Positions 9,362-48,700 of a stretch of DNA of 64,000 bases are shown here, one piece after another; positions within the stretch are counted from its first letter, which is position 1; each line of letters opens with the position of its first letter. This DNA comes from Asparagopsis taxiformis (Eukaryota > Rhodophyta > Florideophyceae > Bonnemaisoniales > Bonnemaisoniaceae). The position numbers and the translations under genes were made by a program. The notes beneath the pieces are model-generated. The model was given only the letters and a program-made list of their open reading frames with translations, was not told the origin of the DNA and ran no database searches. Location of the stretch: NCBI GenBank assembly GCA_030407315.1, contig JALQPE010000319.1, positions 1 to 64,000 on the forward strand, read 5' to 3'.

Positions 9362-10044
9362 TGTAGCAGGTAGAAAATCCGCTAGAGCGGCAAACCACCC
9401 GACAGGTGTCCCGAGCCTCGGTAGAGGAAGTGGTAGAGCAGATGAACCTTATAGGTACCCGGCGGGTAGTCTCGTGAGAGAGAAGGGATCGCTACCCGGA
9501 GGGGGTTGTGCGATTATAGCGCTCACGCGAGATGCGTATTAATGGAGCAAGATGACGTAATCCGTCGAGCTGTTGGCTAACCCTAAGGTTTTCCCGGAGA
9601 GGGGTTGAACAATAGGTATGCGAACACTGTTCCTGTGGGTCGTAATTCCACTTGAGTTTACGTTACTCTAGAAACCGTGCCTACTGGCTATTCCAGTGGC
9701 CGTTTTATACTAAGTCTACTGTAAGCTAGGGTTAGTGGTTAGGAATAAATATCCAGTTAGTGACCAATCAGAACCCAATTACTGGCGCTCGCCTACCCGC
9801 GAGGTCATTGCCAATAGGCTTACATTGTAATGTATGGCTGATCAGCCTAAGTTAAAATTTGCCCCTTGTGGGGTCTTGGCCGGGGCCGATAGGCCCGGGT
9901 GGGGTTATTTGTCAGCCTTAGCTGGTCCTAAGTATAGGAAACACGCCAGTTGGCTGGTGCCTTCTGATTGGCACATCCCGTAAGTGGGTACCCAATAGGG
10001 AAGCGACACGGCTCGATCAGCGAGGACCGCCAGGCGGTACGACA
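9362..10044 (-). repeat. family A LTR shared by copies A1 and A2
   Basis: This is a 683-bp LTR. In element orientation it starts TGTCGTACCG and ends CCTGCTACA. Its right edge is defined because three copies agree up to GGCGGTACGACA and then diverge. A polypurine tract for A2 abuts its right side and A1's leader abuts its left side, so one LTR serves two elements. It differs from the other two family A LTRs at only a few positions. The 3' end of the adjacent A1 primer-binding site is damaged: GAGACCAA in the other copies reads GAGACT here. Confidence 0.9.
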
Positions 10045-10375: not shown

Positions 10376-10544
10376 CGGTGCCAATTCGAGGCTTGCATTC
10401 GCCGTTTCGGCCCATTGCCTCGCGATCCCCCTTCCTGGGTTGAATAGCGCAGCTCCCTCCCGGAGACTTAAGCCAATAGGCCACTTGTTCGTCCCGCTTC
10501 AGGGTTTTTATCAACGTCCGTCATCGCCTCTACTGGCTTTTAGG

Positions 10545-13500
10545 ATGACCCCTCGTGCTCCGATTCAATTCGAATCCTCTGAAGAGGAAGGAGACAATAT
10601 GGGTTCGCCCAACCGTCCTACCACACGCTCCAGCGTTCGCCGTCCCACGACGCGCCACCAGGCTTCCTCCTCCCGCACCGGGGTTCCGCCTACACCGGCT
10701 AAGTCTTCGTCGACTTCAGCGCCACGCGTGCCGTCAGCCACCGCGGCTCAATCGCAAACGCGAACGCGTTCGACTGCCGCCAAAGGCACCGCTGATCCAG
10801 CGTCGCCTGCTGGCAAGGTTGTGAGTGCGCAAGCACGTTCCGAAGAGACGGTCCCCCCTACCAGGGCAAGCGCACAAGAGCGCGACTCTGTTCCGGCTGA
10901 ATCGCCTGCTTCCCCGAAGCCTTCCACCCCAGTGGCAAGTGTCAAACCGTCATCGGTTAATCCGCCGTCACGCGAAGGTGAGTCATCGAAGGCCGCCGGC
11001 CCGTCCCCAAGGGGAGCCATGCCGGCCGACACCGAGGAGGTGATAGAAGTCGTCGCCGAGGGAGGCGCTACGCCCAGGCCAACAAGGCAGCCGAACGTCA
11101 GGCCTTCGCCAAGTTCGCGTCCGATTACTTCTCGTCCTTCCGCCCCGGCGGCTCGTACCTCTTCTGGTCATGACGCTTCAGCGAATCCCTATGAGGACTA
11201 TGGCCGCCGCAACCAACAGATACTGGCGGACGCTCGAAAGCGTAGGGAAGAAGAATTGCGCCGCGAGGCTGCTCGAGCAGAAGCCGAGAAGGCTGCAGCC
11301 GAAAAGGCTAATGCTCAACCTGTCGAGAAGGTCATAGACCCATATGCCTCTACTGGCAGAGTTACCCGAAGTGGGTCTGGTGCGGCTGCCGCCGATGCCT
11401 CTGTAGGCGTAAGACCGTCGGGCACCGCCTTGGTTGACCCTTACGCGGTTGCGTCTGCTCCAGCACCAGCTGTTCCGTCACACGACACTCCCCCTCGGGC
11501 ACCTAAGCCGACTGCCAATTGGCGCTCCATGGGAGAATTCTACCCAGCCAATGCTGATGAACTGGTGGTATTCGACTCGCAAGCCTTGCCTTTCAGGCGT
11601 GAGCTCGCCGCTCCTTGGGAACACTACCCGTTTGCGCGACTCCCTCGTAGGGACTTTACGGATCGCCCGAGAAGCGAGTTACGTCGCGATATGCTTCTCA
11701 TGAGCTCCCTCCGGGGTCAAAACCATCAGGTTCAAAACGAATGTTGGTCGGCGTATGCCCGTCTCCCCTCGAGTCGCCCTATGCGTCACTTCCGTGTCCC
11801 CCATACGCTATGCAGCGACAGGACTTTCCTGCTCCATCCCGGAGATGCGCTGTACGTCGAACGTATGAATCGTCGCTTGTTCCAGGAAGGATCGTACCAA
11901 GGCTCCGTAGCGGATCTACCGATGGTTCGGTCACGCTGGTTTGCGTACCCTCCACGTCCCGATACGGGTAGCTACGAGCATCATATGCGTTTGCACGCTA
12001 GGGTTACTTCCCGAAGGATGGGGCGTCAGGTGACGGCGAATGATTATCGCGTGTTCGCGCACCGTCATGGTAGCTCTGCTGAGCCGGCCACTAGACCCAT
12101 GAAGGTAGCTAGGGAAGCTTTGGACCCGCTATGGGATGATCCCACTTGGGAAGGCAAGTCATCTCCACCGATGTGTTTGCCCGTTGCCGACCCTCCGTCG
12201 CTGGTGTATTTCCACAATTCCGCTCTTCGCGACGCGCCCGAATGGCGAATGGACAGGTTCCGATCGTACCTCGAGTTGGAGAGGGATATCCTTATAGGGA
12301 TCGAGTTGGCTCGTACCGCCGAGACGCGGGGCTTTGTGCCGGTGATGGCGGAGGAACTCCTCAATAGGGTGAGCAGTACTTGGTACGATATCCCGAAGGT
12401 TCCGGTGTCGGACGTGGTCCCCTATAGTCGGGAGTTACCTGGTTCGGTAGTGCGTCGGTTGCTGAAGGTGGCCCTTGGGGGTGATGATTATCCGCAGGAA
12501 TTGGTCAGTACCAACATCACGGGAGTGGCACCGGAGAAGGTGGTTATCTACAGGACTGTTGACTTGCCGGTGAGGGCGTTACGTATTAACGTGTTAAACC
12601 ATCGAGATGGTACAGTCGCAGAGCTGCCGCCTTATCGCAGAGATGGTGAGTTCACCGAAGATGGGTATTACGGCGTGGAGCCTGACAGGTATTCCGACGG
12701 TCACCCCGACTCTTACAAATATCAGCCTGTTGGCGAGGCATTTGTGCCGCGTCCGTGGTGGACGGCCGCCGAGGCGGGAGGCCCAGCTGGGCGTTCGCCT
12801 TACGCAGGACGGAGCTTCGCTCCTGTTGCTTCCTTACCACCCAGTGGTGCTGATGACTTGTACGAAAGTCAGGTCCCGATGACCGTCGCGCCTACCGCGC
12901 CAACCCCTCAGCCTACAGCTGCCCCTTCATCCCAAGTGGGTCCCGCCATGGAGGCGCTTCTGACATCCGACCAAGGCTCTGAGCCATCCGTGAACGGTGA
13001 TGATGTAGTCACGCGTCAGCCTCCTGCTGTTGATATCCTACGTGGGGAATTGTCGAGTCGCGAATTGCTATCGATTCCGCATGTGCGGCGGTTGGCCGAT
13101 GATCTCGGGGATGGTACGGTGGCTTCCATTTTTGCCTCTGCCAATGGGCGTTACATCGTAAGATCCGCGTTGGATGGACTCGCATTGTCGTGCATCACGT
13201 TAGCTGCTCGCTATAAGCAAGGACGCGAACAGCGTAACATCGCCCGAGAGCGTCGCCGCACAGCGGATAGGGAGGTTGAGGCCGCACGCCTGGAGGCAGC
13301 AGAATTGCGAACCCGGGTTGGGGAATTAGAAGGTGAGTTGGAGGACGCCAGGCGTCTACTGCAGCAAGCAGTTATTCCCGAAGAGGGTGGCGAGGAGGCC
13401 GTTCAGCCTGGTTACTCGCGTCGTCGCGCTAGGTCTCCCGATGAGGGTCTTCCCGAACGCAACGTGCGTACTCGTCTTCATTCCCCCGTGGGTGCTGCGG

Positions 13501-13811
13501 ATGCTAGTAATCCTTTACTTGCGCGTCTTGATGCCCGGTTAGGGTCGCCTGAGTCGCCAGATGTTTCTCCGCCTCCCGCGTCCATCCCAGCAGTTGGGTT
13601 ATCCGCCTCTGCGGTTGCGTCTTCGCATGGCCCTGTGCCTGCCCGTCGTCGGGGTTCTAGTGCAGTTCCGCAACGCGGTTTGCGTCGTAATCCTACCTTC
13701 ACAAGGGTTGCACCCCGCCATCCTCGTCCTTCGACGAATGTACGCGCTCCTGCCCCTACGGCACCGTCTGCCTCTCATCGGCCTCGGCCTTCTAGCCATT
13801 ATCGTCGCTAA
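10545..13811 (+). CDS. antisense accessory protein of family A (1088 aa, intact), unknown function
   Basis: Long open frame on the strand opposite gag-pol, lying between the pol end and the 3' LTR and converging on pol. The frame extends upstream to a TTG at 10440, but the first ATG is at 10545. Residues 1-370 are rich in Pro, Ser, Ala and Thr, with a K/E/R/A helical stretch near 220-260. A globular part follows at about residues 375-800; its core (about 410-640) resembles the family B antisense protein, with shared spots such as DALYVERM / DAIYVDRM, NDYRV / DDYRV and RDAP / KDAP. A coiled coil (LEAAELRTRVGELEGELE) lies near residues 900-935. The tail is Arg/Ser/Pro-rich and ends HYRR. There is no zinc knuckle, signal peptide or membrane span, so it is neither Gag- nor Env-like. 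I do not recognise the family. Confidence 0.85.
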   Translation: MTPRAPIQFESSEEEGDNMGSPNRPTTRSSVRRPTTRHQASSSRTGVPPTPAKSSSTSAPRVPSATAAQSQTRTRSTAAKGTADPASPAGKVVSAQARSEETVPPTRASAQERDSVPAESPASPKPSTPVASVKPSSVNPPSREGESSKAAGPSPRGAMPADTEEVIEVVAEGGATPRPTRQPNVRPSPSSRPITSRPSAPAARTSSGHDASANPYEDYGRRNQQILADARKRREEELRREAARAEAEKAAAEKANAQPVEKVIDPYASTGRVTRSGSGAAAADASVGVRPSGTALVDPYAVASAPAPAVPSHDTPPRAPKPTANWRSMGEFYPANADELVVFDSQALPFRRELAAPWEHYPFARLPRRDFTDRPRSELRRDMLLMSSLRGQNHQVQNECWSAYARLPSSRPMRHFRVPHTLCSDRTFLLHPGDALYVERMNRRLFQEGSYQGSVADLPMVRSRWFAYPPRPDTGSYEHHMRLHARVTSRRMGRQVTANDYRVFAHRHGSSAEPATRPMKVAREALDPLWDDPTWEGKSSPPMCLPVADPPSLVYFHNSALRDAPEWRMDRFRSYLELERDILIGIELARTAETRGFVPVMAEELLNRVSSTWYDIPKVPVSDVVPYSRELPGSVVRRLLKVALGGDDYPQELVSTNITGVAPEKVVIYRTVDLPVRALRINVLNHRDGTVAELPPYRRDGEFTEDGYYGVEPDRYSDGHPDSYKYQPVGEAFVPRPWWTAAEAGGPAGRSPYAGRSFAPVASLPPSGADDLYESQVPMTVAPTAPTPQPTAAPSSQVGPAMEALLTSDQGSEPSVNGDDVVTRQPPAVDILRGELSSRELLSIPHVRRLADDLGDGTVASIFASANGRYIVRSALDGLALSCITLAARYKQGREQRNIARERRRTADREVEAARLEAAELRTRVGELEGELEDARRLLQQAVIPEEGGEEAVQPGYSRRRARSPDEGLPERNVRTRLHSPVGAADASNPLLARLDARLGSPESPDVSPPPASIPAVGLSASAVASSHGPVPARRRGSSAVPQRGLRRNPTFTRVAPRHPRPSTNVRAPAPTAPSASHRPRPSSHYRR

Positions 13812-14118: not shown

Positions 14119-15027
14119 CTACTTCTTCCCTCTCTTGGGTTTGCGCGTGCGCGCTCGGCGTGGTTGCCGGTCACCTTCGCGGTGTTGTCTTCGACGGAAG
14201 TACCTTGATGCCCATTCAGGGGGGACGTTCGCGCGTTGCGTCCATGTCGGCTTTCGGTAGCCATACCACTTCACCAGGAACCATTGTTCCCCGTCGTCGT
14301 CAGTGACGTAATCTATGAGATCATCGATGGGATATTCCTCCTCTGAGGTTGCGCGTTCGGCGTCGCTACTTCCCTCTGGGGTTTCCTTCGTCCCTTCAGG
14401 GAGAGCTACTCGTTCCGAGTTCGGCTGCGTGCCCTGTGGCGCTTTCTCTTGTTCCCCATTGGGGGTGGCTTCCAAAGACCTTACGGGGTTTGCCGTGGCT
14501 ATCTTCTTCGCACTTGAGCGAGTGTGTCGACCCGGTTTGGGTTTTGCCAAATGGGCGGGTGCTTGACTTGCTTGGTTCGCTATGCGAAGTTCGGCTCCCG
14601 ATGGAGGGTTCGCGTCCCGTTGAGGGAAAGTCGGCGTTTGTACGCGTGCTTTGATTGAGCGTCGCCTGGTCGCGTTTGCGTTGGTCAAATGCCTTGGGGC
14701 TGAGTCTGTGGCGTCGGTGCCTGCCATACTTTGGCGAGTTGCTCGCTTGTGCGACGGGAGAGCCCTGTCAGGGTTGACGTATTGGTCTTGGTCTGCATTG
14801 GCAGAGTTGTCGTGGCGTCTTTGTTGACTTCTTCGCAATTGTGTGCGATTGCGGTTGGTAGTTACCGGCTGTGTGGGTGAACGACTTGGGTCGTGTGCGT
14901 CGTTCCCAATTGTGGGTGAGTTACCGAAGGGTGAAAGACTACAAGGTTCATCCCGAGAGGGTGTTGCAAAATTTTTGCTTACGCGCACAGCGTCGGGGGC
15001 CCCCTCCTGAAGGGTGGTTTGTCCCAA
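14119..15027 (-). CDS. pol: pol of A2, C-terminal part with chromodomain
   Basis: C-terminal segment of the pol polyprotein, separated from the integrase segment by a one-base loss near 15132 (A1 has one more base there and stays open). It begins with a low-complexity Pro/Ser/Gln/Arg linker of about 200 residues. It ends with a chromodomain at roughly residues 220-268, with the hallmarks DDLIDYV, FLVKWYGY and PTW followed by a final helix. In chromoviruses this domain binds histone marks and directs integration. The last residues are basic (RKPKRGKK). The apparent start is only the first start codon after the shift. Confidence 0.85.
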   Translation of the reverse strand: MGQTTLQEGAPDAVRVSKNFATPSRDEPCSLSPFGNSPTIGNDAHDPSRSPTQPVTTNRNRTQLRRSQQRRHDNSANADQDQYVNPDRALPSHKRATRQSMAGTDATDSAPRHLTNANATRRRSIKARVQTPTFPQRDANPPSGAELRIANQASQAPAHLAKPKPGRHTRSSAKKIATANPVRSLEATPNGEQEKAPQGTQPNSERVALPEGTKETPEGSSDAERATSEEEYPIDDLIDYVTDDDGEQWFLVKWYGYRKPTWTQRANVPPEWASRYFRRRQHREGDRQPRRARTRKPKRGKK

Positions 15028-15044
15028 ACCACTACCTTCAGGTG

Positions 15045-17081
15045 TTATCCTAATTGTAGGTTGTCGTGGAGACGATAGTTGATCCCTGAAGGGGTATTCC
15101 TGATTAGGAGTTGGCGGAAGTGATTCGCTTTGGCGTTCTGTTGGCCGTCGCCCGTCGGTTGGCGTGATTGTGTATTTGGCGCGAGGGCATCTGCACCTGA
15201 TGGTGACGCTTGTGCGTTAGCGGCATGTAGCCGAGGTGGTAAGGTTGGTTCCTCGGTTGGTCGCGGAGCGAGTGCAACTCTATCGAGACTAACCTTTTCG
15301 GTGATACCATCGCGGTCGATGTAAACCGTTCGCCGTCCGGCACGGATAACCCTATAGGGACCTTGAGCTATTGGAGTTAGCTTGTTCCGTTCACGGACTT
15401 CTGGATTATCCAGATAAACGTAATCATCGGTAGTGATGAGTCGTTTAGACTTCCGGATTGACCGGTCGAAGTTACGCTTGTAGCGTGCTTGCGCGCTGTG
15501 AAGGCGTTTACCTGCCATATCAATGGTATCCGTAATACGGCGTAAGAAGTCTTGCTTCGTGAACGCGTCTGGCGTTGCCCTCCTTTTCACCGAATGGTGT
15601 GTCGCATATGGCGGTGGAGGTCGGCTTAGGATTAGGTCGAAGGGTGTAGTTCCCGTTGTGCGATGCACGTGCGTGTTGTACGCATAGGTTAACGCTGATG
15701 CGTAGACATCCCAGTCGTCCTGGTTATCATTAACGTAATTACGTAGCATGCTCAATAGAGTACGGTTATACCGTTCGACTTGCCCATTTGTCTGGGGATG
15801 GTAAGCCGTCGTGAAGACGTTCTTCGTTCCTAACTGGAGGCAGACGGCCTGGAAGAACTTCGACGCAAATTGCGGACCGTTATCGGATAGTAATGTCCGT
15901 GGAGGACCATACTTAAACACCCAATGTGTACAAAAGGCTACTGCCACATGGTAAGCCGTAATGCTTCGCAGGGGCACCACTTGGGTGAGCTTGGTAAAGC
16001 GACACGAAATCACCAGTAGGTGCACGTTACCTTTCTTGGTACGAGGTAGAGGACCGAGGAGGTCAATTGCAACGTCATCCAATGGTGTGGTAGCTGGGAA
16101 CAGCTGGAGGGTACTCGCATGTTTGCGCAACCGTAATCGGTTTCTCGCGCACGCTGAACAGCGTTCAACCGTTCCGGTTATGTCCGCAGCCATTGCAGGC
16201 CAATAATAAGATAGGCGCATCGTGTCGTACATGCGGTTCTGACCAGGATGTCCTGCCAAGATGCCGTGGTGGCACATCGTCAATAGACGTTGCCGTAAGG
16301 CTTTGGGTACCACAATCTGGGATGACCCGTCCAATTTGGACTTCCTACAAAGGACACCGTCTTCATCTTCGAAGAAGAGAGAGTCAGACTTCTGCGAGGC
16401 CAGGGCCTGTTGACAGAAGTCGTCTGTTCGTTGCTCTTCGAGCCACTCTTGGAGAGTTATCGGGCAGTAGTTTTCCGTTTGCGGATGAGTTGTTAAGACG
16501 GGTGTACCGTTGCGATTAGGCGCCTCCTCGGCGTGGTCTCTTGCTAGAGAAAGGTCGTAGAACCAAACATCAGTGTCATCATCCAGGGATGTTTCACCTT
16601 GCGGTGCGTGCGTGGCCAACAGAGTTGGTATTTCATCGTCAATAGTGACGGGCGTCTCGCCGTTAGTTTCAACACGCGAAAGGGCGTCTGGTAGTTGGTG
16701 AACCCGGCCGGGTCGGTAGACTATTTGATAGTCAAATTCCGCAAGTCGGAGGCGCCAACGGCATAGTCTCCCTGAAGGGTCATTGATATTCATGAGCCAA
16801 CGCAGCGCGTTATGGTCCGTCCGGACTACAAACTTTGTTTGCTCCAAGTATGGACGTAGGATAGTGACAGCCCATACGACGGCTAGACATTCACGCTCCG
16901 TAGGGGAGTAACCTCTTTCAGGTTTAGTCAAGGTCCGCGACCAATAGCCAATTGGCTTGAGATCGTTCTCTTCCCCTTGCTGCTGAAGCAGAGCGCATCC
17001 TATTTGGTATGCGGAAGCGTCCGTGTCTACGGTGTAGGGTTGACCCAACTTGGGTAGAGCCAGTATCGGCGGCTTGGTCAT
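15045..17081 (-). CDS. pol: pol of A2, RNase H and integrase segment
   Basis: An RNase H-like domain opens the segment (VDTDASAYQIG near residue 18) and runs to the conserved RPGRVHQLPDALSR near 123-136. The integrase follows. Its zinc finger uses His 271/272 and His 278 with Cys 308 and Cys 311. The catalytic triad is Asp 340 (AIDLLGPLP), Asp 400 (LLSDNGPQF) and Glu 436 (GQVERYN), which gives the classical D,D-35-E spacing. A usually acidic position after the first beta strands (VIxDRFTK in family B) is Cys here (VISCRFTK) in both A1 and A2; it is not a catalytic residue. The segment starts just after a frameshift near 17090, so its Met is not a biological start. It is shifted again near 15132. 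Confidence 0.9.
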   Translation of the reverse strand: MTKPPILALPKLGQPYTVDTDASAYQIGCALLQQQGEENDLKPIGYWSRTLTKPERGYSPTERECLAVVWAVTILRPYLEQTKFVVRTDHNALRWLMNINDPSGRLCRWRLRLAEFDYQIVYRPGRVHQLPDALSRVETNGETPVTIDDEIPTLLATHAPQGETSLDDDTDVWFYDLSLARDHAEEAPNRNGTPVLTTHPQTENYCPITLQEWLEEQRTDDFCQQALASQKSDSLFFEDEDGVLCRKSKLDGSSQIVVPKALRQRLLTMCHHGILAGHPGQNRMYDTMRLSYYWPAMAADITGTVERCSACARNRLRLRKHASTLQLFPATTPLDDVAIDLLGPLPRTKKGNVHLLVISCRFTKLTQVVPLRSITAYHVAVAFCTHWVFKYGPPRTLLSDNGPQFASKFFQAVCLQLGTKNVFTTAYHPQTNGQVERYNRTLLSMLRNYVNDNQDDWDVYASALTYAYNTHVHRTTGTTPFDLILSRPPPPYATHHSVKRRATPDAFTKQDFLRRITDTIDMAGKRLHSAQARYKRNFDRSIRKSKRLITTDDYVYLDNPEVRERNKLTPIAQGPYRVIRAGRRTVYIDRDGITEKVSLDRVALAPRPTEEPTLPPRLHAANAQASPSGADALAPNTQSRQPTGDGQQNAKANHFRQLLIRNTPSGINYRLHDNLQLG

Positions 17082-19132
17082 GACCTCTTTGAGAGCGTTG
17101 AACGCGCGCGTTGGTCCTCGGTAGGAGGTTCTTTCCCGAATTTAGGGAGGCTGTCTTTGGTCAGCATTTCGTTCAAGGGGTGCGCAATTGCGGCATACCC
17201 TTTGATGAATCGTCGAAAGACGCCACAGCTTCCGAGGAAGGATCGCATTTGCGTAGGCGTTTGCGGAAAGATCGCGTCAGCGATAGCCGAAGTGGCGTTC
17301 TGTGCAACAGCTAGCTTTCCTGGCATCACGACATGTCCCAGGTAATCAACCTTCTTTTCGAAGAAATGACACTTTGTCAACTTCAGGGTGACACCTGCTT
17401 CCCGTAGGAGGGAGAGTACTTGGTCCACATGGTGGAGATGTTCGGCCTCGTCCCGAGAGAATACGATCACATCGTCTAAGTAAATCAGACAGGTCTGCCA
17501 GCGAACGCTGCTAAGAATAATGTCGATGGCACGCTGAAACGTTGCCGGAGCATTCTTTAAGCCAAAAGGCAAACGCTTGAAGCGATATGTCCCCAAATGG
17601 GAGGTGAATGCCGTTTTGTCACGGTCGTCCTGTGCAACAGGGATCTGCCAATAGCCAGAATTACAATCCAATGTGGTGAATACTTGAGCATCTCCGAGGG
17701 AGTCAATACAATCATCCATTCGTGGAAGGGGGTACACATCATTGACAGTGATGTCGTTAAGACCCCTATAGTCGACGCAAAAGCGTAATTTACCATCCTT
17801 CTTCGGGACAAGAACCACTGGGCTAGCCCATTCGGAGGTCGACGGTTCGATCACTCCCTTTTCCAGCATGCTGGTTATTTCCTTACGGGCAATCTCTCGG
17901 CGAGCGGGTCCCATCCGGTAGGGTTGTTGCCGTCTAGGCTTGCTCCCTTCGACTATGTCGATTCGGTGTTCCGTAGCGCGGATGTCCCCTAGGGATCCAT
18001 CCCACATAGACTCGTGTCGAGATAGCATGCTAAGGATGCGTTCCCTCAACGGGATTTGACCAAGGTGGTCCAGAGAGACTTCTTGCTTCCAGCTTGGTGG
18101 TTGGGTGGCCTCGGCCTTTTGCTCCTGATGGAGAGTAGTCACCATAGTGGAGGCCTCTTGGGAGGAAGGGGTAGAACGGCTGAGAGCCATGGGGCGCATT
18201 GGCCGTTCGGGTGCCCGAAGGGCATAGCCTATAATTGTCCCTTTAGGGAGGTACTTGTCGGATGTACCGAAGTTAGTTAATATAGTCAGGAATTCCTGTC
18301 GCGGGATGACTTCCGCAACCCCATTCGGGATAGAGACACGATGTCGGTGAAGGATCCGATCTCTCGGAGAGAGTATACTCAAGCCGCCACCGGCGCATAC
18401 AACAGTAGTTGTTACTTGACTCCGCGGAGGAACATTCACACTTTGTGACAATCGAATGCCATGAGGCTGGCGGTCTAAGTTAATCCCATTAGAGGGTCGC
18501 GAGGCATCCACGTAGCACGAAAGGGTGGGGGATGTTTTACGCGTAGGCGACATCACTAGGATAGCTATCGACCCGCCGTCGTGAATATCAATTCGTTGGG
18601 CCCGGCACCTAATTGCGTCTACGTGGGTATTCATTGCCCCAGTTCCCAAGATGAGGGGTACGGCCAACTTAGGCGCGACGAAGAATTCTTCCTCAAAGGA
18701 CTTGTGGCCTAACTGTAATGACAGTATTATCTTGCCTTTTATCCGAAGAGGATTGCCGTTAGCATCGGCCAGTTGCGGAACTTTCCCCGTAGGGACTTGG
18801 AATTGTTCCCAATTGTGGGGTAAGCTCCTTTCATGGATGACCGATGGTCCGGACCCGGTGTCCATCACCATACGCATGGGCGTGAGAATTGACGGATCGA
18901 GTCCGATGGAACCCATTACTACGTAATGGGCGGCCTTAAGCAGGCATGAGGCTTTCGGCCTTGAGGTTCGAGTCCCTGTGGGGGAACCCGAAGGGGTTGG
19001 TGTCTGGGAAAGACTTTGGTCCCTAGAGGGAGTTGCAGCCTTTTCCTGCGGAGGTGGTTGTGGTGAGATGTCCACCGAGTAGCGTAATCGCTCCACCTCC
19101 TGACGGGAGTGCGACACCTCACTCCCCGTCAT
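17078..19132 (-). CDS. pol: pol of A2, protease and reverse transcriptase segment
   Basis: The pol start ATG at 19130-19132 shares its A with the gag stop TAA (TAATG), so Pol is probably made by termination-reinitiation. An aspartic protease has its active site DTGSG at residues 91-95 and the distal LILGTGAMNTH near 160-170. A linker follows, then reverse transcriptase at about residues 390-600: VLVPKKDGKLRFCVDYR, the first catalytic Asp in TTLDCNSGYW (489), and YLDD at 551-554. The thumb continues to the RNase H connection, where a frameshift near 17090 ends the frame. A1 is open at that point. The shift falls inside a short block where A2 differs from A1 at many bases. Confidence 0.92.
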   Translation of the reverse strand: MTGSEVSHSRQEVERLRYSVDISPQPPPQEKAATPSRDQSLSQTPTPSGSPTGTRTSRPKASCLLKAAHYVVMGSIGLDPSILTPMRMVMDTGSGPSVIHERSLPHNWEQFQVPTGKVPQLADANGNPLRIKGKIILSLQLGHKSFEEEFFVAPKLAVPLILGTGAMNTHVDAIRCRAQRIDIHDGGSIAILVMSPTRKTSPTLSCYVDASRPSNGINLDRQPHGIRLSQSVNVPPRSQVTTTVVCAGGGLSILSPRDRILHRHRVSIPNGVAEVIPRQEFLTILTNFGTSDKYLPKGTIIGYALRAPERPMRPMALSRSTPSSQEASTMVTTLHQEQKAEATQPPSWKQEVSLDHLGQIPLRERILSMLSRHESMWDGSLGDIRATEHRIDIVEGSKPRRQQPYRMGPARREIARKEITSMLEKGVIEPSTSEWASPVVLVPKKDGKLRFCVDYRGLNDITVNDVYPLPRMDDCIDSLGDAQVFTTLDCNSGYWQIPVAQDDRDKTAFTSHLGTYRFKRLPFGLKNAPATFQRAIDIILSSVRWQTCLIYLDDVIVFSRDEAEHLHHVDQVLSLLREAGVTLKLTKCHFFEKKVDYLGHVVMPGKLAVAQNATSAIADAIFPQTPTQMRSFLGSCGVFRRFIKGYAAIAHPLNEMLTKDSLPKFGKEPPTEDQRARSTLSKRS

Positions 19133-21057
19133 TAGTTTTCCGACGACGTGTCGGAGTCGTCGGAGGTTTCCAAGGCGTCGGCAACGTCTTGAGCCGTTAC
19201 GGAAGATCCGTTACGTTCTAAAACGTCTCGCCTCAGAGGGCCCAATTTGGGATGATTTTCGTCATCGGCGAACGCAACCATGCGTGTTGGAGGGTTTGAC
19301 CGTTGGAGCACGGCTTTAGGGTAATCCCTTTTTCGGTTGAACCGATTGGACTGGCGCTGTTGGCGGCGCATAACCTGTTCCGGTTCTTGCTGGTAAGCGT
19401 AGTTCGCAAAGGCGAAGTAAGTTCCCACTGAGGGTGGTAGGTAAGGGCAAGTGTACAACACATGCCCCGGTTGGCGACAGCCAGAGCATCTCCAAGTAAC
19501 AGCCCCTTCGGGGATCATACTCTCAGCGAGTTTAAGATGTTCTCCCGTTAGGGTAGGGGCCTGCATTGGCGCGCCCATTGGGTTCCCGGTAGGGGAAGGT
19601 AAGGTCGGCGGCGGGGTCCGCGGTATCACAGCCGGTTCTCCGGGTACGGTAGCGGGCAACGCTTTGCGTTTACGATCCGCGATTTCCCGAGTAGGGTAGG
19701 CCTTAGGTTTCGCGGGTAGCGATACTCGTAAAGAGTCCCCGAGTCCTTTAGCAAGGTTACGGACAGCAAGGAAATCTTCTCCGCCACTGCGGCCTATAGT
19801 CACCTTGACGGTGTGTTTAACCTCTGGGCGTAGGCCCTTGAGGTAGTAGTTGACCAAGTCTCTTTCCGAGAAGACGTTCGCACACAGGAGTGCAGCGTCC
19901 TGCAGTCTGTCTGCGTATGCAGCTTCATCTTCATCCGGCCCTTGCCGTATACGCGTTACTGCGTCATATGCGTCCGCTAGGACATTGTCCGTCGCGTAGC
20001 GAGCCAGAAGGGCGTTAACGGCTTGAGGCCAAGTGATCTGCTGATGCAGGTGGTTGAGAAGCTTGCGCTTTCGCGCCTCAGCGGCGATAAACCGTTGAGG
20101 TTCTCCTTCCAGGAAATACTTGAGTAACTTGGTAGCTTCTCCCTCCGAGACTCCGCATGAATCACATGCATCTTGAAATTCCGCGAGGAACCGGAGGATA
20201 TCGATGGGTTCCGTACCATCGAACGGCGTGAATGACGCGTTGAAATTACGGATCTTCTCCGTTAGCTTATACAAGCTTCTTGATTTACCCGTTGGGGTAT
20301 CAGTCGTTAGGGACTTGTTCTTGAGTCGGTAGTACCGATAGGAGACCACTAGGTCGAACGCGGGTTCGCGGGCCTTCAAAGGCACTAAGCCTTCCTCAAG
20401 AGGTCCTTCTTCATCATCCCACGAGGGATTTTCCGGTATAGATCCGGTGGCACGAGTGTGCTGTCTCGTGCGAGAGATATTCCCTGTTTGGGATAGTGAT
20501 TCGGCGAGGGCGTCGACACGGTCCGACAGGTGTCGTGTTGCTTCCGCGACTTGATCCAATCGGGGATCTTCTTCTTCCTCCCTACCGGATGTAGGGTCAG
20601 GGAAGTCAGCCGGTCGGCTGCGGCGAGCAGGAAACTCCTGTTGTCCTAATGGACTGGCACTAAAGCCGTGAATCGAAAGCTCCTCCAGACGAGTTTCCAA
20701 AAGGGACACGCGTTTAGCGAATTCGGCTTTGACCTGATTCCAGGTTTCCGCTAGGAACTCGGCGTCCCGATCTTGGGTGGCTTCTCGGCTGGCGGCCATC
20801 AGCTTTGGCTCGACCAGTTCCATGACGGTTTCGACCGTAGCGTCTACGATTTCCGCCCTGCGGTCTTGAACAGTCTTCTCGACGACGGTGCTGAATTCAG
20901 CCTTGAACTCTTCCAACCGTTCGTTGAAGATTCGGTCGGCTCGGTCTTGCAGGGTGTTAATCACCACGCCTTCTTCGGCGATCAGATCCGAATCGGATAA
21001 GTCGCTGGCAGGCGCTATGTCCTCACTAGAGGGTCCCGCTGTAGGGTTACGAGGCAT
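19132..21057 (-). CDS. gag: Gag polyprotein, copy A2 (641 aa)
   Basis: Structural protein that forms the retrotransposon particle and binds its RNA. The first 140 residues are acidic and then strongly coiled-coil (for example ERLEEFKAEFSTVVEKTVQD). The capsid-like helical region lies at about residues 270-430, with FDGTEPIDILRFLAEF, YFLEGEPQRF and DEDEAAYADRLQDAA, which are typical of the retrotransposon Gag family. One CCHC zinc knuckle is at residues 524-537 (CSGCRQPGHVLYTC). The tail is acidic and Ser/Asp-rich. Start chosen: the ATG at 21055-21057, conserved in all three copies and 58 nt from the primer-binding site. Confidence 0.93.
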   Translation of the reverse strand: MPRNPTAGPSSEDIAPASDLSDSDLIAEEGVVINTLQDRADRIFNERLEEFKAEFSTVVEKTVQDRRAEIVDATVETVMELVEPKLMAASREATQDRDAEFLAETWNQVKAEFAKRVSLLETRLEELSIHGFSASPLGQQEFPARRSRPADFPDPTSGREEEEDPRLDQVAEATRHLSDRVDALAESLSQTGNISRTRQHTRATGSIPENPSWDDEEGPLEEGLVPLKAREPAFDLVVSYRYYRLKNKSLTTDTPTGKSRSLYKLTEKIRNFNASFTPFDGTEPIDILRFLAEFQDACDSCGVSEGEATKLLKYFLEGEPQRFIAAEARKRKLLNHLHQQITWPQAVNALLARYATDNVLADAYDAVTRIRQGPDEDEAAYADRLQDAALLCANVFSERDLVNYYLKGLRPEVKHTVKVTIGRSGGEDFLAVRNLAKGLGDSLRVSLPAKPKAYPTREIADRKRKALPATVPGEPAVIPRTPPPTLPSPTGNPMGAPMQAPTLTGEHLKLAESMIPEGAVTWRCSGCRQPGHVLYTCPYLPPSVGTYFAFANYAYQQEPEQVMRRQQRQSNRFNRKRDYPKAVLQRSNPPTRMVAFADDENHPKLGPLRRDVLERNGSSVTAQDVADALETSDDSDTSSEN

Positions 21058-21115
21058 CGTGAAGATGATTGTGAAGGAAAATTTCTCTCAAAGAGACTTA
21101 CCCGAGGGTACAAGG

Positions 21116-21134: not shown

Positions 21135-21816
21135 TGTAGCAGGTAGAAAATCCGCTAGAGCGGCAAACCACCCGACAGGTGTCCCGAGCCTCGGTAGAGG
21201 AAGTGGTAGAGCAGATGAACCTTATAGGTACCCGGCGGGTAGTCTCGTGAGAGAGAAGGGATCGCTACCCGGAGGGGGTTGTGCGATTATAGCGCTCACG
21301 CGAGATGCGTATTAATGGAGCAAGATGACGTAATCCGTCGAGCTGTTGGCTAACCCTAAGGTTTTCCCGGAGAGGGGTTGAACAATAGGTATGCGAACAC
21401 TGTTCCTGTGGGTCGTAATTCCACTTGAGTTTACGTTACTCTAGAAACCGTGCCTACTGGCTATTCCAGTGGCCGTTTTATACTAAGTCTACTGTAAGCT
21501 AGGGTTAGTGGTTAGGAATAAATATCCAGTTAGTGACCAATCAGAACCCAATTACTGGCGCTCGCCTACCCGCGAGGTCATTGCCAATAGGCTTACATTG
21601 TAATGTATGGCTGATCAGCCAAAGTTAAAATTTGCCCCTTGTGGGTCTTGGCCGGGGCCGATAGGCCCGGGTGGGGTTATTTGTCAGCCATAGCTGGTCC
21701 CAAGTATAGGAAACACGCCAGTTGGCTGGTGCCTTCTGATTGGCACATCCCGTAAGTGGGTACCCAATAGGGAAGCGACACGGCTCGATCAGCGAGGACC
21801 GCCAGGCGGTACGACA
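21135..21816 (-). repeat. 5' LTR of copy A2 (682 bp)
   Basis: Starts TGT and ends ACA in element orientation; boundaries are fixed by the primer-binding site and by divergence of the flanks after GTACGACA. It contains several CCAAT-type motifs (GCCAATCAG, CCTATTGG, GATTGG) upstream of a TATA box, as expected for a Pol II promoter. Confidence 0.92.
21475..21482 (-). promoter_or_regulatory. TATA box in the family A LTR
   Basis: TATAAAAC on the minus strand, downstream of the CCAAT-type motifs and about 340 bp before the LTR end, so it would start the genomic transcript inside the LTR. The same motif is present in the other two family A LTRs. Confidence 0.6.
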
Positions 21817-26193: not shown

Positions 26194-26251
26194 CGTGAAG
26201 ATGATTGTGAAGGAAAATTTCTCTCAAAGAGACTTACCCGAGGGTACAAGG

Positions 26252-26269: not shown

Positions 26270-26270
26270 A

Positions 26271-41379: not shown

Positions 41380-42040
41380 TGTAGTATACGTGGCAATTCC
41401 GAAATTGCAAATATTTACGATTTCCGCGGAATTCGAATTTCGGCGGACACGACCGGCGACAGCAATGCACGAACATTGCTGGCGCATGCGCGCGCGCAAC
41501 CGGCACACGTGTGCAACGAACGTACTGGCAACGGCCCAACGGACCAACGGGTCCCTACGTGTGACCCACAAGGTCCTTTCCCATTCGGGGACGTTACGAG
41601 CAGTGTTTACACTGTAAAGCGATGCCATCGTGGTTATATAGGTATTGGCATCGTGCCGGGAGGGAAAGGGGACAATTCATCGAACGAGCAACGGCTCTAG
41701 TCTACGACTGACTTCTACGTTTTACGTTTACGTTTTGCCTAACGAGGCTTCGTCTCCGTCGAGCTGCGTACTCCCTACCCATCGCCGCACGTAAGGCTGA
41801 TTGCGTGTAGTGCCTCCGGGCTTGGTTGAGAGCGCCTCCGGTGACGTACCACCTCGTTTAGCGAACGTAATCCTCGCGTGGATTGTTGCGTCGTGACGCT
41901 CGTGTCTACTCGCTAACCACTCTACCTTCTACCTTTCTAACAATACAGTCAAACACCAGCGGGTGGACTGCTCGTTTCGTTTCGTAAGGACAGCGTGTCC
42001 GTAGCTCGTACCAGCTATCTAGAACTAACGTTGTTCCACA
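41380..42040 (+). repeat. 5' LTR of family B element
   Basis: 661 bp, TGTAGTATACG to TTGTTCCACA. It lacks one copy of a short ACCAACGG repeat that the 3' LTR has. Confidence 0.93.
41635..41640 (+). promoter_or_regulatory. TATA box in the family B 5' LTR
   Basis: TATATA within GGTTATATAGGTATTGG. The 3' LTR (54335-54340) and the solo LTR keep it as GGCTATATAGG. Confidence 0.6.
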
Positions 42041-42041
42041 C

Positions 42042-42059: not shown

Positions 42060-42323
42060 GTTGCTACGAGCATAACGACAATCAACGAGGTTGAGCTCTT
42101 TTACGTTAACGAAAAGCTACGTGCTACGCTACAGACGACGGTCTATGAATTACGCTGTGTCGAATTCCAGCGCGTCGCCCAGGCAACCGTTGCCAACGTC
42201 AGCGGACGCCGAAGCCGACGTGGCCTTGTCAGCAGAAGCGATCTTCGCGACTGATCGATCTATCCCGCCGGATATCGAGGCGATCGGCCAGCACGTACGG
42301 TAAGCCCGTTTGAGTCCCTGAGT

Positions 42324-44546
42324 ATGGACCCCGCAACGCGCGGTCAGCTCAACGAAGGGAACGTGACTCCCACGGCACTACGCGTAGTGTACGAAGACCT
42401 TCGAGGTCACATCGAAAGGGCGAGCGACGCGGCCGTCGACGAAGCCGTAAGGCAGAGACTCGGAGTCTCGGAGCGCGAAGCTCGTGCGTTACGTGAACGC
42501 TCAGCGACCCTCGAACGGGAAAACGAAGATTTACGAAACCGCCTCTCCGCCGTGGAGGGAAGACTCGACTCGTTTGTCGTAGTATTCAACGAAATCGTCG
42601 CCGGACGTTCCGCTCCGCCGAGCGGAAGCGATCCGAATTACGAAGAAGGCTCGCGCGCCTATAACTCGCAATCCTCCCCGGCCGTTCCGGGAGGATACCC
42701 ACCAACACCCGGTCCGACGACCCCGACAACGTACGGAAGGGGGGCGACAGTGCAACGAGCCATCGCCAACCCCGACGAGACGCCACGAAGGCAATTACGT
42801 TTTAACGATACGCCAGACCACGCGCGGTCGGCGGACGCAGCACGAGCTGCGCAATTCGATACGAGAGCTCCCCCGCCACGTGAGACGTACATTCCGTGGC
42901 TGGGTACGTTCGGCACGACGGACACGCGAGTCCACGAAAACGAACGTGCCGACGCGGTACGCTTACCAGGGAACGCCCTCGGACCCGTTTGCCACGCGTT
43001 GGCAGAGCACACGACAATGCTCGACGCATTTGCGAACGTGGTGTCGTACCGCATGTACCGACTTAACGATGTACGTGAACATCTCTACGTGAACGAGAGT
43101 CAAAGCGTACATAAGCTCAAACGTGAGCTGGAGGGACTTTTCCCTACGTTAAAGCCGTTCTCCGGCCGGAATCCGATTACGTTGCTCGGATTCCTCGCCC
43201 AAATACGTGATGGGTTCAGCACACTCGGAGTGTGCGAGGGAGTGGCAGTACGTGCGCTGCACTTCTTCCTCGAAGGGGACGCCCGACGGTTCTACGATTC
43301 CCAGTGTACGACTGGCGTGATCACGACTGATCCGACGAAGAGGTTCTCGTGGCCTCACGTAATCAACGCGTTGATTAAACGATACCTGCAAGACGACGTG
43401 CTGCAGGAGGCCTACGAAAAGGTCACGATGATCACGCAGAGTCCTAACGAGGACGAGAATCAGTACGCTGATAGACTCGACACCGCCACGCGGGCGTGCA
43501 ACTACGTGTTTACGGATCGACTCCTCGTTCACCACTACGTACGTGGTTTGCTGCCCTCGACGCGGGCAGCCGTGACGGAACGACTCCGGTCACTCCCCGA
43601 ACGAGAGAGGAACGACCTCACCGTTGTGAGACGATTGGCGACGGCCGAAGGAACGACCTTCCGTGCACGTACGGCAGCTGTCGCGTCAGCCGCGAAACCG
43701 AAAGTGCGGTTTCCGGTGAAGCCTACGTTGGCTATTTCCGACCACGAGTCGAGGAAGTTCGCGGACTACGATGAGTCCGCGTACTTACGTAATGAACGGG
43801 CTAGCGAGCCCAGTTACCACGATGGTAACCCGAACATCCCCGCGAGGGACGATGACGACGTGTCGCTCGCTGCGGCTCACGTTGCCGAGAATTTGGAGGC
43901 GATCCTCTTCACGAACGGGCCGCCGCCCAACGATACGAAAACGGCAAACGAAAAGCCGGACGAGCTCGAAGCTCGATTGAACCGTCCATGCGAGGACGTG
44001 CCGAAGCTCACGAGCGAGCAGACGCAATTGGCGCACTCCGTAATCCCGAATGATTACTGGACGCTGTCGTGTTGGTCATGCCGCGAAGATGGCCACTCGA
44101 CGTTTACGTGTCCGCGTCTGACGCCAGATCAACGGATCTTTTTCGCGTACAAGTACTACCTCTTCCACGTGAAGAGCAACCCACGTCAGGCTGAGTACTT
44201 CCGCCAACGAATGGCCAAACGTAACCAGGAACGACCTGGCGAGCGAGGGAACGTGACCCCGCGGAGGTACGGCACGCCGCCTACGATACTCCGAAACCCC
44301 AATCGTGACGGGGGAAGGCCCTTCGACAGGCGCCGCGGCGACTTTCGTAATGACCGACGTGACCCCCGCCCGTGGGCGAACGAACGAAATGGCCAGCGTA
44401 ATGGCCGCAGCGGAGTCTACGTGACGACTTCCGCTGACGAAACACCACTCGAGGTGGGAACGAGTCACGATGACGAACGAGCTTCGTGGGCTCACGACGA
44501 CGACGTGTCGAACGGCCTCGCGCCGGAAAACGACCAGGCGATGTAG
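42324..44546 (+). CDS. gag: Gag polyprotein of family B (740 aa)
   Basis: Particle-forming and RNA-binding protein. The N-terminal coiled coil (about residues 20-95) contains EREARALRERSATLERENED. A Pro-rich linker follows. The capsid-like region at about residues 270-430 matches family A Gag in pattern (FSGRNPITLLGFLAQI, HFFLEGDARRFYD, NEDENQYADRLDTA). The CCHC knuckle is at residues 583-596 (CWSCREDGHSTFTC). The tail is Arg/Asn/Gly-rich and then acidic. Start ATG 42324 is the first in a clean frame; the stop is TAG 44544-44546. Pol follows in the -1 frame. Confidence 0.92.
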   Translation: MDPATRGQLNEGNVTPTALRVVYEDLRGHIERASDAAVDEAVRQRLGVSEREARALRERSATLERENEDLRNRLSAVEGRLDSFVVVFNEIVAGRSAPPSGSDPNYEEGSRAYNSQSSPAVPGGYPPTPGPTTPTTYGRGATVQRAIANPDETPRRQLRFNDTPDHARSADAARAAQFDTRAPPPRETYIPWLGTFGTTDTRVHENERADAVRLPGNALGPVCHALAEHTTMLDAFANVVSYRMYRLNDVREHLYVNESQSVHKLKRELEGLFPTLKPFSGRNPITLLGFLAQIRDGFSTLGVCEGVAVRALHFFLEGDARRFYDSQCTTGVITTDPTKRFSWPHVINALIKRYLQDDVLQEAYEKVTMITQSPNEDENQYADRLDTATRACNYVFTDRLLVHHYVRGLLPSTRAAVTERLRSLPERERNDLTVVRRLATAEGTTFRARTAAVASAAKPKVRFPVKPTLAISDHESRKFADYDESAYLRNERASEPSYHDGNPNIPARDDDDVSLAAAHVAENLEAILFTNGPPPNDTKTANEKPDELEARLNRPCEDVPKLTSEQTQLAHSVIPNDYWTLSCWSCREDGHSTFTCPRLTPDQRIFFAYKYYLFHVKSNPRQAEYFRQRMAKRNQERPGERGNVTPRRYGTPPTILRNPNRDGGRPFDRRRGDFRNDRRDPRPWANERNGQRNGRSGVYVTTSADETPLEVGTSHDDERASWAHDDDVSNGLAPENDQAM

Positions 44547-44629
44547 GTCACGAGCCACCCACATCGCCTGAACCCTTACGTGAAAGGGGGACGACCGACG
44601 TCGATGATTGGTCCTCCGCAGGCTCACCG

Positions 44630-45751
44630 ATGAACGAGAGTTACGTAAAGCTCACGGCCGCGAAGGCCAACTCGAGTCACACGACACCCGACGTGGGGAG
44701 AGAAACGAAGTCCGACGGGACGAACGAACCTCACACGAAGAGGAAGCCTCGCAGACGAGCGAGACGCGCTACCCGGAAGCACGACGCTTCCGAGCGCGAG
44801 AAAGCCAAGCACGCGGCTTATACGAAGCGTGTCGACGCAAAAGAAGCCATACGGGCTCATACGGTGAAGCGACGAACCGCTAGCGAAGACGTAGACCGCG
44901 CGCCGGTCAGGACCGAACCGTTGGTCCTCGACGGGCATACGTGCCTACTTGCGTCGAAGCATTATATCGTGTCCGGAACGATCGGACTAGACCTCAACGT
45001 GATGAGGGCGATTACCATCGCGATGGATACGTGCAGCGGCTACAACTTGATACGAACAAGTTTACTACCCTACGACTGGGTCGACCGCTGTCTACGTGAC
45101 GAAGAGCTACCGAAGCTCGGAGACGCCAACGGGCGACGTTTGCCTATCGAAGGCGCCATCCTGCTTCGTGTCAGGCTTGGGAACTCGCTGTTCCGCGTAA
45201 AATTCTTCGTAGCCAACACGCTGGCTGTCCCCGTCATAATGGGCACGTCGTTCATGTCGAAGCATGTCGATGCTATACGCTGTCGAGCGCAAACGATCGA
45301 CCTCCATCGAGGAGATACGATACCCATTATCGCGGAGGGTGATACGACGACTCCGTACGAGGAGGGGGAAGAGACGAATCCAAACGTGGAACACCCGAAA
45401 CGCCGCGAGCGTAACGCGGCCTCGAATCGGCCAAGCCGAACGTTTTCGGTTCGCCTGACGAAGTACACGCGTGTACCGGCGATGTCGCAACGGACCGTCA
45501 ACGTGACGACGGATGCGACCGGACTCGTGTTCCTCGAACCGAAAGCGTCGGTGCAATTCCGGCATGGGCTTCGTATAGCCAACGGAGTGGTCGACGTAGG
45601 ACCAGAGAGACGTTCTCTATTATCGTATCTAACTTCACGAAGAAGGACCGCGAGCTGCCGAAAGGCGCGACGATTGCGTACGCGGTACGCTCCCCGTTGG
45701 GAATCGTCCCACTCAAGCGTGAGGGCGGCGAAGCCCTCGCGAAGGTTTTGA
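44630..45751 (+). CDS. pol: pol of family B, protease segment
   Basis: Open in the -1 frame relative to gag. The frame extends back to 44486, overlapping the gag end by 61 nt, so a -1 frameshift is possible. The first ATG is at 44630. After a basic linker (KRKPRRRARRATRKH) comes an aspartic protease. Its active site reads MDTCSGYNLI (Asp codon 45026-45028), with Cys where the retropepsin triad has Gly. The distal part PVIMGTSFMSKHVDAIRCRAQ aligns with LILGTGAMNTHVDAIRCRAQ of family A. The frame is lost near 45605-45612; the last 45 codons here are out of frame. Confidence 0.82.
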   Translation: MNESYVKLTAAKANSSHTTPDVGRETKSDGTNEPHTKRKPRRRARRATRKHDASEREKAKHAAYTKRVDAKEAIRAHTVKRRTASEDVDRAPVRTEPLVLDGHTCLLASKHYIVSGTIGLDLNVMRAITIAMDTCSGYNLIRTSLLPYDWVDRCLRDEELPKLGDANGRRLPIEGAILLRVRLGNSLFRVKFFVANTLAVPVIMGTSFMSKHVDAIRCRAQTIDLHRGDTIPIIAEGDTTTPYEEGEETNPNVEHPKRRERNAASNRPSRTFSVRLTKYTRVPAMSQRTVNVTTDATGLVFLEPKASVQFRHGLRIANGVVDVGPERRSLLSYLTSRRRTASCRKARRLRTRYAPRWESSHSSVRAAKPSRRF

Positions 45752-48700
45752 ACCTACCGCTAGTCGACGCGACGACGCGGACGAATACGAACGGGTTGGG
45801 CGACGAAACGCCAGACCCGTTGGTCAACGAAAAGGGGAACGACCCCGCCACGGATTGGCAGTCGACAATCGATTTGTCGCACCTCGACGACGAGGATTTA
45901 CGAAAGCGCATCAACGAGATGCTAGCTACACATTCGTCAATGTGGACGAGCGGACGCCTCGGCGAAATCAATGCTACGGAGCATCGAATCGAACTCGAAC
46001 CGGGCACGCGGCCCATACGTTCAATGCCCTATCGTCAGGGTCCGGCTTTACGTACGATAGCCGAGGAGCAGATCACGAAGATGCTCAACGAAGGGGTTAT
46101 CGAACCCGCGTCCAGCGAATGGGCGTCACCAATCGTGTTGGTGCCGAAGAAGGACGGATCCTTACGTTTCTGTGTCGACTACAGGCGTTTGAACGCGAAA
46201 ACGATCGCTGATTCGTACCCGCTTCCTCGTATGGAAGATTGCCTCGATTCGCTTGGCGACGCCGCCATCTTCACGACACTCGATTGTAACGCCGGTTACT
46301 GGCAAGTGCCCGTCTCCGCCGAGGACCGTGATAAGACAACGTTTACGTCTTTCATGGGAACGTATCGCTACGTGCGAATGCCATTCGGGCTACGAAATGC
46401 CCCCGCTACGTTTCAGCGGACGTTGGACATCATCCTCTCCGGAGTACGTTGGCAATCGTGCCTTGTTTACTTAGACGACGTAATCGTCTTTTCGAAAGAC
46501 CTCGAGTCTCACCTGGGTCACGTTGACCAGGTGCTTTCCCTGCTACGCGCAGCGGGAGTAACGTTAAAGCTCACGAAGTGCTCGTTCTTTCAACCACGAG
46601 TTGACTACCTGGGGCACGTGATTACCCCAGGGAAGCTGCACGTCGCAGCACGGAACAAGGAAGCCTTTCGTACGGCTACGTTCCCGCGAGACAAGACGCA
46701 ATGTCGATCGTTTTTGGGCGCGGCCAACGTTTACCGCCGTTTCGTAAAGGCGTATGCCGAGATCGCTCGGCCACTCAACACGATGTTGAAGAAGGACGCT
46801 TCCCCCGATTGGACGAACCCAACGGACGCGCAAACGAATGCGTTCGAAACGTTGAAGACAATACTGGTGTCGCCACCAGTATTGCACCTTCCGAAGGCGG
46901 GACGTCCGTTCATGATCGATACCGACGCGTCGGCGTATCAGCTGGGAGCTACGTTGCTCCAGCAGCAGAACGAAGATAAGCCCAACGAATGGGTGCCGAT
47001 TGGGTACTGGTCGAAGACCCTTAACGAAACCGAACGTGGTTACTCGGCGACCGAGCGCGAGTGCTACTCCGTCGTCTGGGCGATAACGTCGCTCCGACCC
47101 TACGTAGAGGGTCAGCGGTTCACCGTACGTACGGACCACGAAGCCTTACGTTGGCTGATGACGTTGACGGACGCGTCCGGACGACTACTACGATGGAGGC
47201 TACGCGTTGCCGAATTCGATTTCGAAGTTACGTACAGGCCTGGGCGCGTGCACCAGGTACCTGACGCTTTATCACGTGTGATATCTACGTATGACGACGG
47301 TCGACCCGTCGACGATGACGTACCATCGTACGGGGACGCGGTCCTCGTGACGACTCGCAGTCGTCGACAACCCACACGAAATGGGCAAGGACGAACGACG
47401 TCCGTACGTAAAAAGGCAACGAATGCCAGGGGTCACGACGACCCGTCGAACGAGACTCGTGACGAACGGACACCAGCCGCGACGGCTGGCAACGATGGAC
47501 TCGAGTTCAACCGCGACGCGTCGCTCGATGACGTTCTCGACGAGGAACCGGATTTCCTCGACGAACAGCGCGCTGCTGAAGACGATTCGGCACGCGTGCC
47601 ACCAGCTGACGTTCAGCTTCCCATTACGAGGGACGAGCTTATCGAAGCTCAACGCGAGGACACGTTCTGTCAAACGATACTGACACGACAGTCCGAGACG
47701 CAGGACGCTGCATTCTTCGAAGGCCACGATGGCCTACTCCGACGCCGGAACCCTCACGACGAGGAACGTACACAAATCGTTGTGCCGGCTTCGTTGCGGC
47801 CGCGGCTGCTGGAGTTAACGCACCACCACGTCCTCGCTGGACACCCCGGACAAACGCGTATGTACTACACCCTACGGAGGACGTACTACTGGCCCGCGAT
47901 GGCCGCCGACATCTACGCAACGGTACGAAACTGCGTTGGATGTGCGAAGAACCGCGTGAAGCTTCGCAAACGGACGAACCCGTTACGTTTATTTCCGGCT
48001 ACGGAGCCGTTGCGAGACCTATGTATCGACATACTAGGTCCGCTTACGAAGACCACGCGTGGCAACCGATTTATTCTCGTTATAACGGACCGCTTCACGA
48101 AGCTGACTAGAGTCGTACCTCTACGTAATATCGATTCCGCCAACGTGGCGAGTGCGTTCGTCAACGCGTGGGTCTTCTCGTATGGACCCCCACGGACGCT
48201 CATAAGCGACAACGGAAAGCAGTTCGCTGCTAAGTTCTTCCAGCGCGTTTGCAACGAGATTGGCGTAACGAACGTCTTTACGTCGACGTACCACCCCCAA
48301 ACGAACGGGCAGGTGGAGCGCTACAACAGGACGATCCTGGCGATGCTGCGCAATTACGTGAACGAAAACCAGAACGACTGGGATCGATACGCATCGGCGT
48401 TAACGTTTGCGTACAACACGCATGTGCATTCGAGCACGGGCACGACGCCCTTCGACTTGATTCTCACGAATCCACCGCCACCGTTGGCGCTACACACGTC
48501 GGTAACGAACCGCGAACTACCCGACGGGGGAGGGCGAGCCACTTACGTTCGTGAGCTCGCCACAACGATGGATAACGCGTATCGAACGCTGAAGGCCGCG
48601 CAGGCACGTTATAAACGAAATTTCGACAAACGAGTCCGTGTCTCGAATCGAAACATCCGCGCGGGAGAATACGTATTCATCGACCCGACGGACGGGACCA

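Follow-up and report, generated by a model that had tools for sequence, protein, structure and literature searches.

An antisense protein-coding gene under purifying selection between pol and the 3' long terminal repeat of Ty3/Gypsy elements in the red alga Asparagopsis taxiformis

Deltaretroviruses encode an accessory regulatory protein on the minus strand near the 3' long terminal repeat (LTR); in human T-cell leukaemia virus type 1 (HTLV-1) the antisense gene is HBZ. The available text of two sources describes antisense open reading frames (ORFs) between pol and the 3' LTR (aORF-3R) in the retrotransposons Grande (gene23), RIRE2, Retand and PvRetro13 and in the fungal element Boty (PMC7264820, PMC11963269), and gives APH-2 as the antisense gene of HTLV-2 (PMC11963269). 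According to the same passages, the Grande gene is reportedly transcribed from a promoter upstream of it and its protein is nuclear, 97% of Retand clusters encode TRP28 in the antisense ORF, and both Grande and Retand are suggested to owe a regulatory function to their antisense genes (PMC7264820, PMC11963269). Here we describe a gene with this layout in Ty3/Gypsy retrotransposons of the red alga Asparagopsis taxiformis. The stretch of DNA analysed, hereafter the window, comprises 64,000 nucleotides (positions 1 to 64,000 of contig JALQPE010000319.1, assembly GCA_030407315.1) and holds elements of two families, A on its minus strand and B on its plus strand, each with a long gene on the strand opposite gag-pol. 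This antisense gene is a real coding gene, present in many conserved copies under selection.

The layout is that of Grande, RIRE2, Retand and PvRetro13, as those elements are described in the passages available. In those same passages Retand belongs to a non-chromovirus lineage whose antisense proteins carry TRP28 (PF04195), whereas the present elements have a chromodomain at the end of pol, and their antisense protein has no meaningful Pfam match. TRP28 was not among the Pfam matches of the window proteins (E up to 0.1) or of eight sequences (E up to 10), a negative that holds at Pfam sensitivity, with HMMER filters that drop most weak matches; this agrees with an earlier sequence-only reading of the window, which recognised no relation to Retand. 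The comparison with Grande, RIRE2 and PvRetro13 is one of layout. Beyond plants, in another kingdom, Boty of Botrytis cinerea and Sclerotinia has an antisense ORF in the same position, and we liken it to the present gene by layout alone, as far as the source describes it (PMC7264820). The deltaretroviruses are likewise likened by layout, and in the available text the HTLV antisense promoter lies inside the 3' LTR (PMC7264820), whereas the candidate promoter here lies outside it. No antisense ORF in red-algal retrotransposons was described in the open-licence literature, as judged from titles and the starts of abstracts among the matches listed. The arrangement is already known. Within the literature and databases searched, both the protein family and its host group appear to be new.

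In family A the antisense ORF (Table 1) sits inside an open frame of 1150 codons between pol and the 3' LTR. In 1000 random sequences drawn from a Markov-1 model of positions 10046-14118, the longest plus-strand frame arising by chance had 411 codons (median 160), so that the long frame pointed out by the sequence-only reading, with its 1088 amino acids (aa), exceeds all of them. The counterpart that this reading placed in family B is indeed present, and its window copy proved to be split across two frames; of 30 genomic B loci read, 20 have one frame that stays open for 790 codons or more. As these 30 were the best-scoring of 125 scored loci, from 938 candidates, intact copies are over-represented among them. 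The genomic searches covered the 141-Mb assembly holding the window, which contains 25 exact matches to the motif of A and 350 to that with B-type codons. Four of the eight A loci read have the full antisense frame, the window copy itself among them. Placement between pol and the 3' LTR is seen in A and B in the window, and on the pol side only in a further family, C1, where an integrase-chromodomain frame on the opposite strand comes after the final 27 residues of the antisense protein. The surrounding gag-pol was viewed for A, B and C1; the other families introduced below (C2, D and E) were read at the antisense gene only.

That this frame is protein-coding is seen in its pattern of substitution. 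In family B, the ratio of nonsynonymous to synonymous differences per site (pN/pS), taken over all pairs from the best-matching stretch of each of the 30 loci with rearranged loci kept, is 0.14 for the whole antisense frame and 0.039 for its core. The other five frames at the locus give whole-frame values of 0.23 to 3.4, at least 2.1 in four of the five; the frame at 0.23, with a core value of 0.14, lies on the opposite strand, and the probable reason for its low ratio is that its third positions occupy the same sites. Between the ATG and the end of the core, codon positions 1 and 2 differ by 0.01-0.02 and position 3 by 0.07-0.11, a pattern that begins at the ATG. The upstream flanks within the element differ by 0.03-0.07, the outermost 300 bases, most of which lie beyond the element, by 0.42, and the downstream stretch by 0.11. 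Since third positions vary freely and first and second positions do not, a protein is selected, as the sequence-only reading had proposed.

That reading had also aligned a shared core in the A and B proteins by eye, and the match is significant. By BLASTP, the A protein matches the two window pieces of B with E values of 4e-6 and 0.002, and an open B copy with 6.6e-8 (22% identity over 259 aa). A profile comparison with hhalign gives a probability of 92%, an E value of 5.8e-7 and a score of 58.4; the highest score among 40 block-shuffled controls was 23.1, and a single reversed control reached 14.0. On this evidence the two proteins are homologous. A codon pattern for DA[LIVMF]YV[DE]RM, leaving out the alanine codon used by A and B, matched 160 further genomic places, and the reversed control matched none. 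In the 30 of these places that were read, the frame around the motif has between 190 and 971 codons, some of these frames being broken or cut by the end of the piece, and the 30 fall by eye into four groups, C1 (6), C2 (8), D (11) and E (5). A second codon pattern found five more places, perhaps a further family, and two places with other B-type codons (L091 and L092) turned out to be family B. In global alignments, protein identity to A is 82% for D, 74% for E, 43% for C1, 42% for C2 and 27% for B. Families of elements are usually delimited by the 80% rule, under which D may be a subfamily of A, because the two are about 82% identical in DNA (from the dN/dS counts). This one genome has the antisense protein in no fewer than six families or subfamilies (A, B, C1, C2, D and E). 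A protein search with the A core returned one relative, P0001, which is 98.7% identical to C1 and therefore probably belongs to the same species or a very closely related one. A profile search for relatives returned nothing and missed even P0001, so that its negative result says little; in IMG/VR no relative was confirmed.

Between families, the ratio of nonsynonymous to synonymous substitution rates (dN/dS) could be followed in 15 of the 30 loci from the new families, picked for long open frames; the between-family pairs drew on seven of these and the window. Six pairs inside the groups A-D-E and C1-C2 give 0.14-0.21 for the whole frame; the core gives 0.08-0.13, the N-terminal part 0.16-0.31 and the C-terminal part 0.12-0.36. 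In a seventh pair, A and C2, synonymous sites have reached saturation. The antisense frame is thus under purifying selection as a protein-coding sequence. Of the two outcomes that the sequence-only reading had named as refuting it, a lack of significant profile match between the two proteins and a dN/dS near 1 across many copies, neither was observed.

One claim of the sequence-only reading fell: that the antisense protein is conserved in elements whose Gag and Pol are strongly diverged. Between A and B the greater part of Pol is more strongly conserved, at 56% for protease-reverse transcriptase (RT; main B pol frame) and 52% for RNase H-integrase, than the antisense protein at 22%, although the first B pol frame shares only 39% with A over 234 aa of the protease-RT stretch; Gag shares 31%. 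Between A and C1 the antisense protein is 43% identical and the integrase region 76%. By these identities the antisense protein evolves faster than Pol, and it therefore does not form an island of conservation within an element that is strongly diverged elsewhere.

The protein runs from a start rich in Pro, Ser, Thr and Ala, which is probably disordered, through a more aromatic core and a coiled-coil-like stretch recognised by eye to an Arg-rich end. Three [DN]PY motifs occur in 17 of 18 sequences across the six families, whereas shuffling expects about 0.16-0.32 per protein; the exception is P0001, whose sequence begins inside the core. The five Gag and Pol frames tested contain none (two more pol frames lay outside the test). 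The sites precede the core in A-type families and lie near the C-terminus in B. In B, the leader before the antisense ATG (53478-53672, minus strand) would, if translated, give a hydrophobic stretch. Immediately before the ATG, codon positions 1, 2 and 3 differ by 0.099, 0.048 and 0.129, against 0.021, 0.005 and 0.094 just after it, and the stretch has a stop in two of 30 copies and gaps of one or two bases in four. A translated hydrophobic N-terminus, which would have suited an envelope protein, was rejected because the codon pattern of the gene is absent there and because of these stops and gaps.

Upstream of the antisense ATG, a TATA-like box was found in 12 of 13 sequences from five of the six families, as GGAGATTTAAG in D and E, TATATAAG in C1 and TATTTAAG in C2 and B; two loci (L075 and L082) were left out of the count as the string locating their start did not match. 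The box of B and its counterpart in A lie outside the LTR, where the LTR is known. These boxes hint at a dedicated antisense promoter.

Based on these observations, we propose that the antisense frame is a selected accessory protein gene of a red-algal Ty3/Gypsy group, with its own promoter and a part in regulating the element, and we give this reading even chances. Most likely the gene would be transcribed from a promoter of its own between the 3' LTR and the ATG, converging on pol. Its protein may self-associate, and could bind nucleic acid or a host factor, perhaps via the repeated [DN]PY motif. It would then regulate the expression, RNA or chromatin of the element that carries it, in line with what is proposed for the antisense genes in Grande and Retand.

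Several observations weigh against this proposal. In the last third of the B gene constraint is weak, codon positions 1 and 2 reaching 0.05-0.08 against 0.07-0.13 at position 3, and after the core pN/pS rises to 0.30. Within families dN/dS is higher than between them (0.13-0.72 in 21 pairs), as would follow if many copies, once inserted, decay. The window copy of family A has GGAGACTTAAG and fails the TATA-like pattern; random sequences match that pattern in about 5-13% of cases, and the sequences counted are related, their families not independent, so that the box is suggestive only. In C1 and C2 it lies just 25 nucleotides before the first ATG, and translation may therefore begin at a later Met. 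Pfam gave weak, mostly coiled-coil-type matches (E 0.2 and above) and no meaningful relative, and a sequence search of PDB with the core profile found none. The AlphaFold model of the core is worthless, with a mean predicted local distance difference test score (pLDDT) of 34, so that nucleic-acid binding is argued from composition.

The selected protein may have a different task. It could be an anti-silencing factor that blocks methylation or small-RNA silencing of the element by the host, in the way that VANC of VANDAL elements works. A host-facing protein would be expected to outpace Pol, as this one does between A and C1, and the element is present in many copies, as the exact motif counts for A and B indicate; fast evolution suits a disordered accessory protein equally well, though, Gag being likewise diverged between A and B, and there is no Pfam relative. 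We hold this explanation to be unlikely. In retroviruses env lies next to the 3' LTR, the position that the antisense gene occupies here, and particle proteins contain Pro-rich and basic segments as this protein does, from which one might suppose that a minus-strand mRNA yields an envelope-like protein or one associated with particles. Yet the orientation is opposite to that of env, an env-like ORF3 needs sense orientation, and the hydrophobic stretch of B sits upstream of the first ATG and outside the codon pattern of the gene. Nor does the protein significantly resemble the Gag of these elements (best E 0.36), and an origin from Gag was rejected on the same ground. A structural role thus strikes us as improbable.

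It might also be the antisense RNA and not the protein that matters, for example as double-stranded RNA with the gag-pol transcript. The convergent layout would allow this, and the idea is discussed for plant elements in the available text of PMC7264820. Because selection acts on codons, a protein is what has been selected; an additional effect of the RNA is compatible with that, whereas noncoding RNA as the whole explanation is ruled out by the frame length, the codon-position pattern and the homology. We consider a role of the RNA in place of the protein very improbable. The same three observations rule out a chance frame. With a G+C content of 52.5% the window does yield fairly long chance frames, and the opposite-strand frame in B with its lowish pN/pS could suggest the shadow of a sense-strand gene. 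The length of the antisense frame, its homology across families against shuffled controls and the fact that it has the lowest pN/pS leave chance or shadow next to no credence.

The family A copies stand in tandem and have LTRs in common (window 1-26953). The middle copy is bounded by LTRs that are 99.4% identical and encodes, in order, gag, protease-RT, RNase H-integrase and a chromodomain-like end. Its gag-pol (14119-21087) is spread over four overlapping frames, whereas the antisense frame of this copy is unbroken. In a third, shorter copy the match is confined to 22523-26951, a stretch without the antisense gene. Of ten genomic family A copies read at both ends, four have a 5-bp flank duplication (GCACG, CCAAC, ACGAT and CTGCT; by eye), three have none and three could not be judged. 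Family B occupies 41380-54739, and no target duplication was seen in its flanks in the window. The primer binding sites of A and B share the same 13 bases, which probably means the same tRNA primer. From pol to the antisense gene B has about 2.2 kb (49074-51250), A and C1 only about 0.3 kb. Beyond family B, a tandem array of a 35-bp repeat with at least 11 units lies at 56780-57333.

In a search with Pol, the nearest matches bearing an organism name were from the red algae Chondrus crispus and Agarophyton chilense. The assembly also contains 13 matches to phycobilisome proteins, 11 of which share a single contig, in keeping with a red-algal host. The chromodomain at the integrase C-terminus scores above the Pfam cut-off in B and below it in A, but that of A is similar to that of B (56% over 48 aa). 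A brown alga has chromodomain Gypsy lineages that are not chromoviruses, according to the portion of the report available (PMC12477816), and for this reason the chromodomain does not lead us to call the present elements chromoviruses.

Table 1. Features of the family A (middle copy) and family B elements, in window coordinates.
Feature	Position	Strand	Basis or remark
Family A 3' LTR, middle copy	9362..10044	-	TG..CA, 683 bp
Family A counterpart of TATA-like box, GGAGACTTAAGCC	10462..10474	+	83 nucleotides before ATG; fails TATA-like pattern
Family A antisense ORF, 1088 aa, opposite gag-pol	10545..13811	+	translation; selection seen between A, D and E and between C1 and C2
Three [DN]PY motifs: NPYED 11184, DPYAST 11337, DPYAVA 11436	11184..11453	+	motif count
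Conserved core, residues 311-745	11475..12779	+	alignments, hhalign A against B
DALYVERM within core	11844-11867	+	alignment
NDYRV within core	12039-12053	+	alignment
Coiled-coil-like stretch, residues 874-943	13164..13373	+	by eye from translation; weak Pfam matches only
Arg-rich tail	after 13373, to 13808	+	translation
Family A chromodomain-like pol end, converging on antisense ORF	14119..15216	-	PF00385 E 0.0079, below Pfam cut-off
Family A gag, protease-RT, RNase H-integrase frames	15045..21087	-	open frames and Pfam
Family A 5' LTR, middle copy	21135..21816	-	primer binding site 21121-21133
Family B 5' LTR	41380..42040	+	primer binding site 42042-42054
Family B gag and pol, chromodomain at end	42255..49074	+	PF00385 E 1.3e-7, above Pfam cut-off
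Family B antisense gene	51250..53477	-	frameshifted in window copy, open in many genomic copies
Family B TATA-like box, GGTTATTTAAGCC	53682..53694	-	upstream of antisense ATG
Family B 3' LTR	54073-54739	+	97.9% identical to 5' LTR

That red-algal chromodomain Gypsy elements have an unrelated antisense accessory protein family of their own, with a dedicated promoter, we rate a little short of even. If it is true, then, taken with Retand and Grande, Boty and the deltaretroviruses, a minus-strand regulatory gene beside the 3' LTR would have evolved several times independently. With strong selection, six or more families or subfamilies and hundreds of places in one genome, these elements offer a deep comparative set on the role of such genes. 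Antisense genes beside the 3' LTR are already known in flowering plants, fungi and deltaretroviruses, and the gene in this red alga suggests that they recur across eukaryotes.

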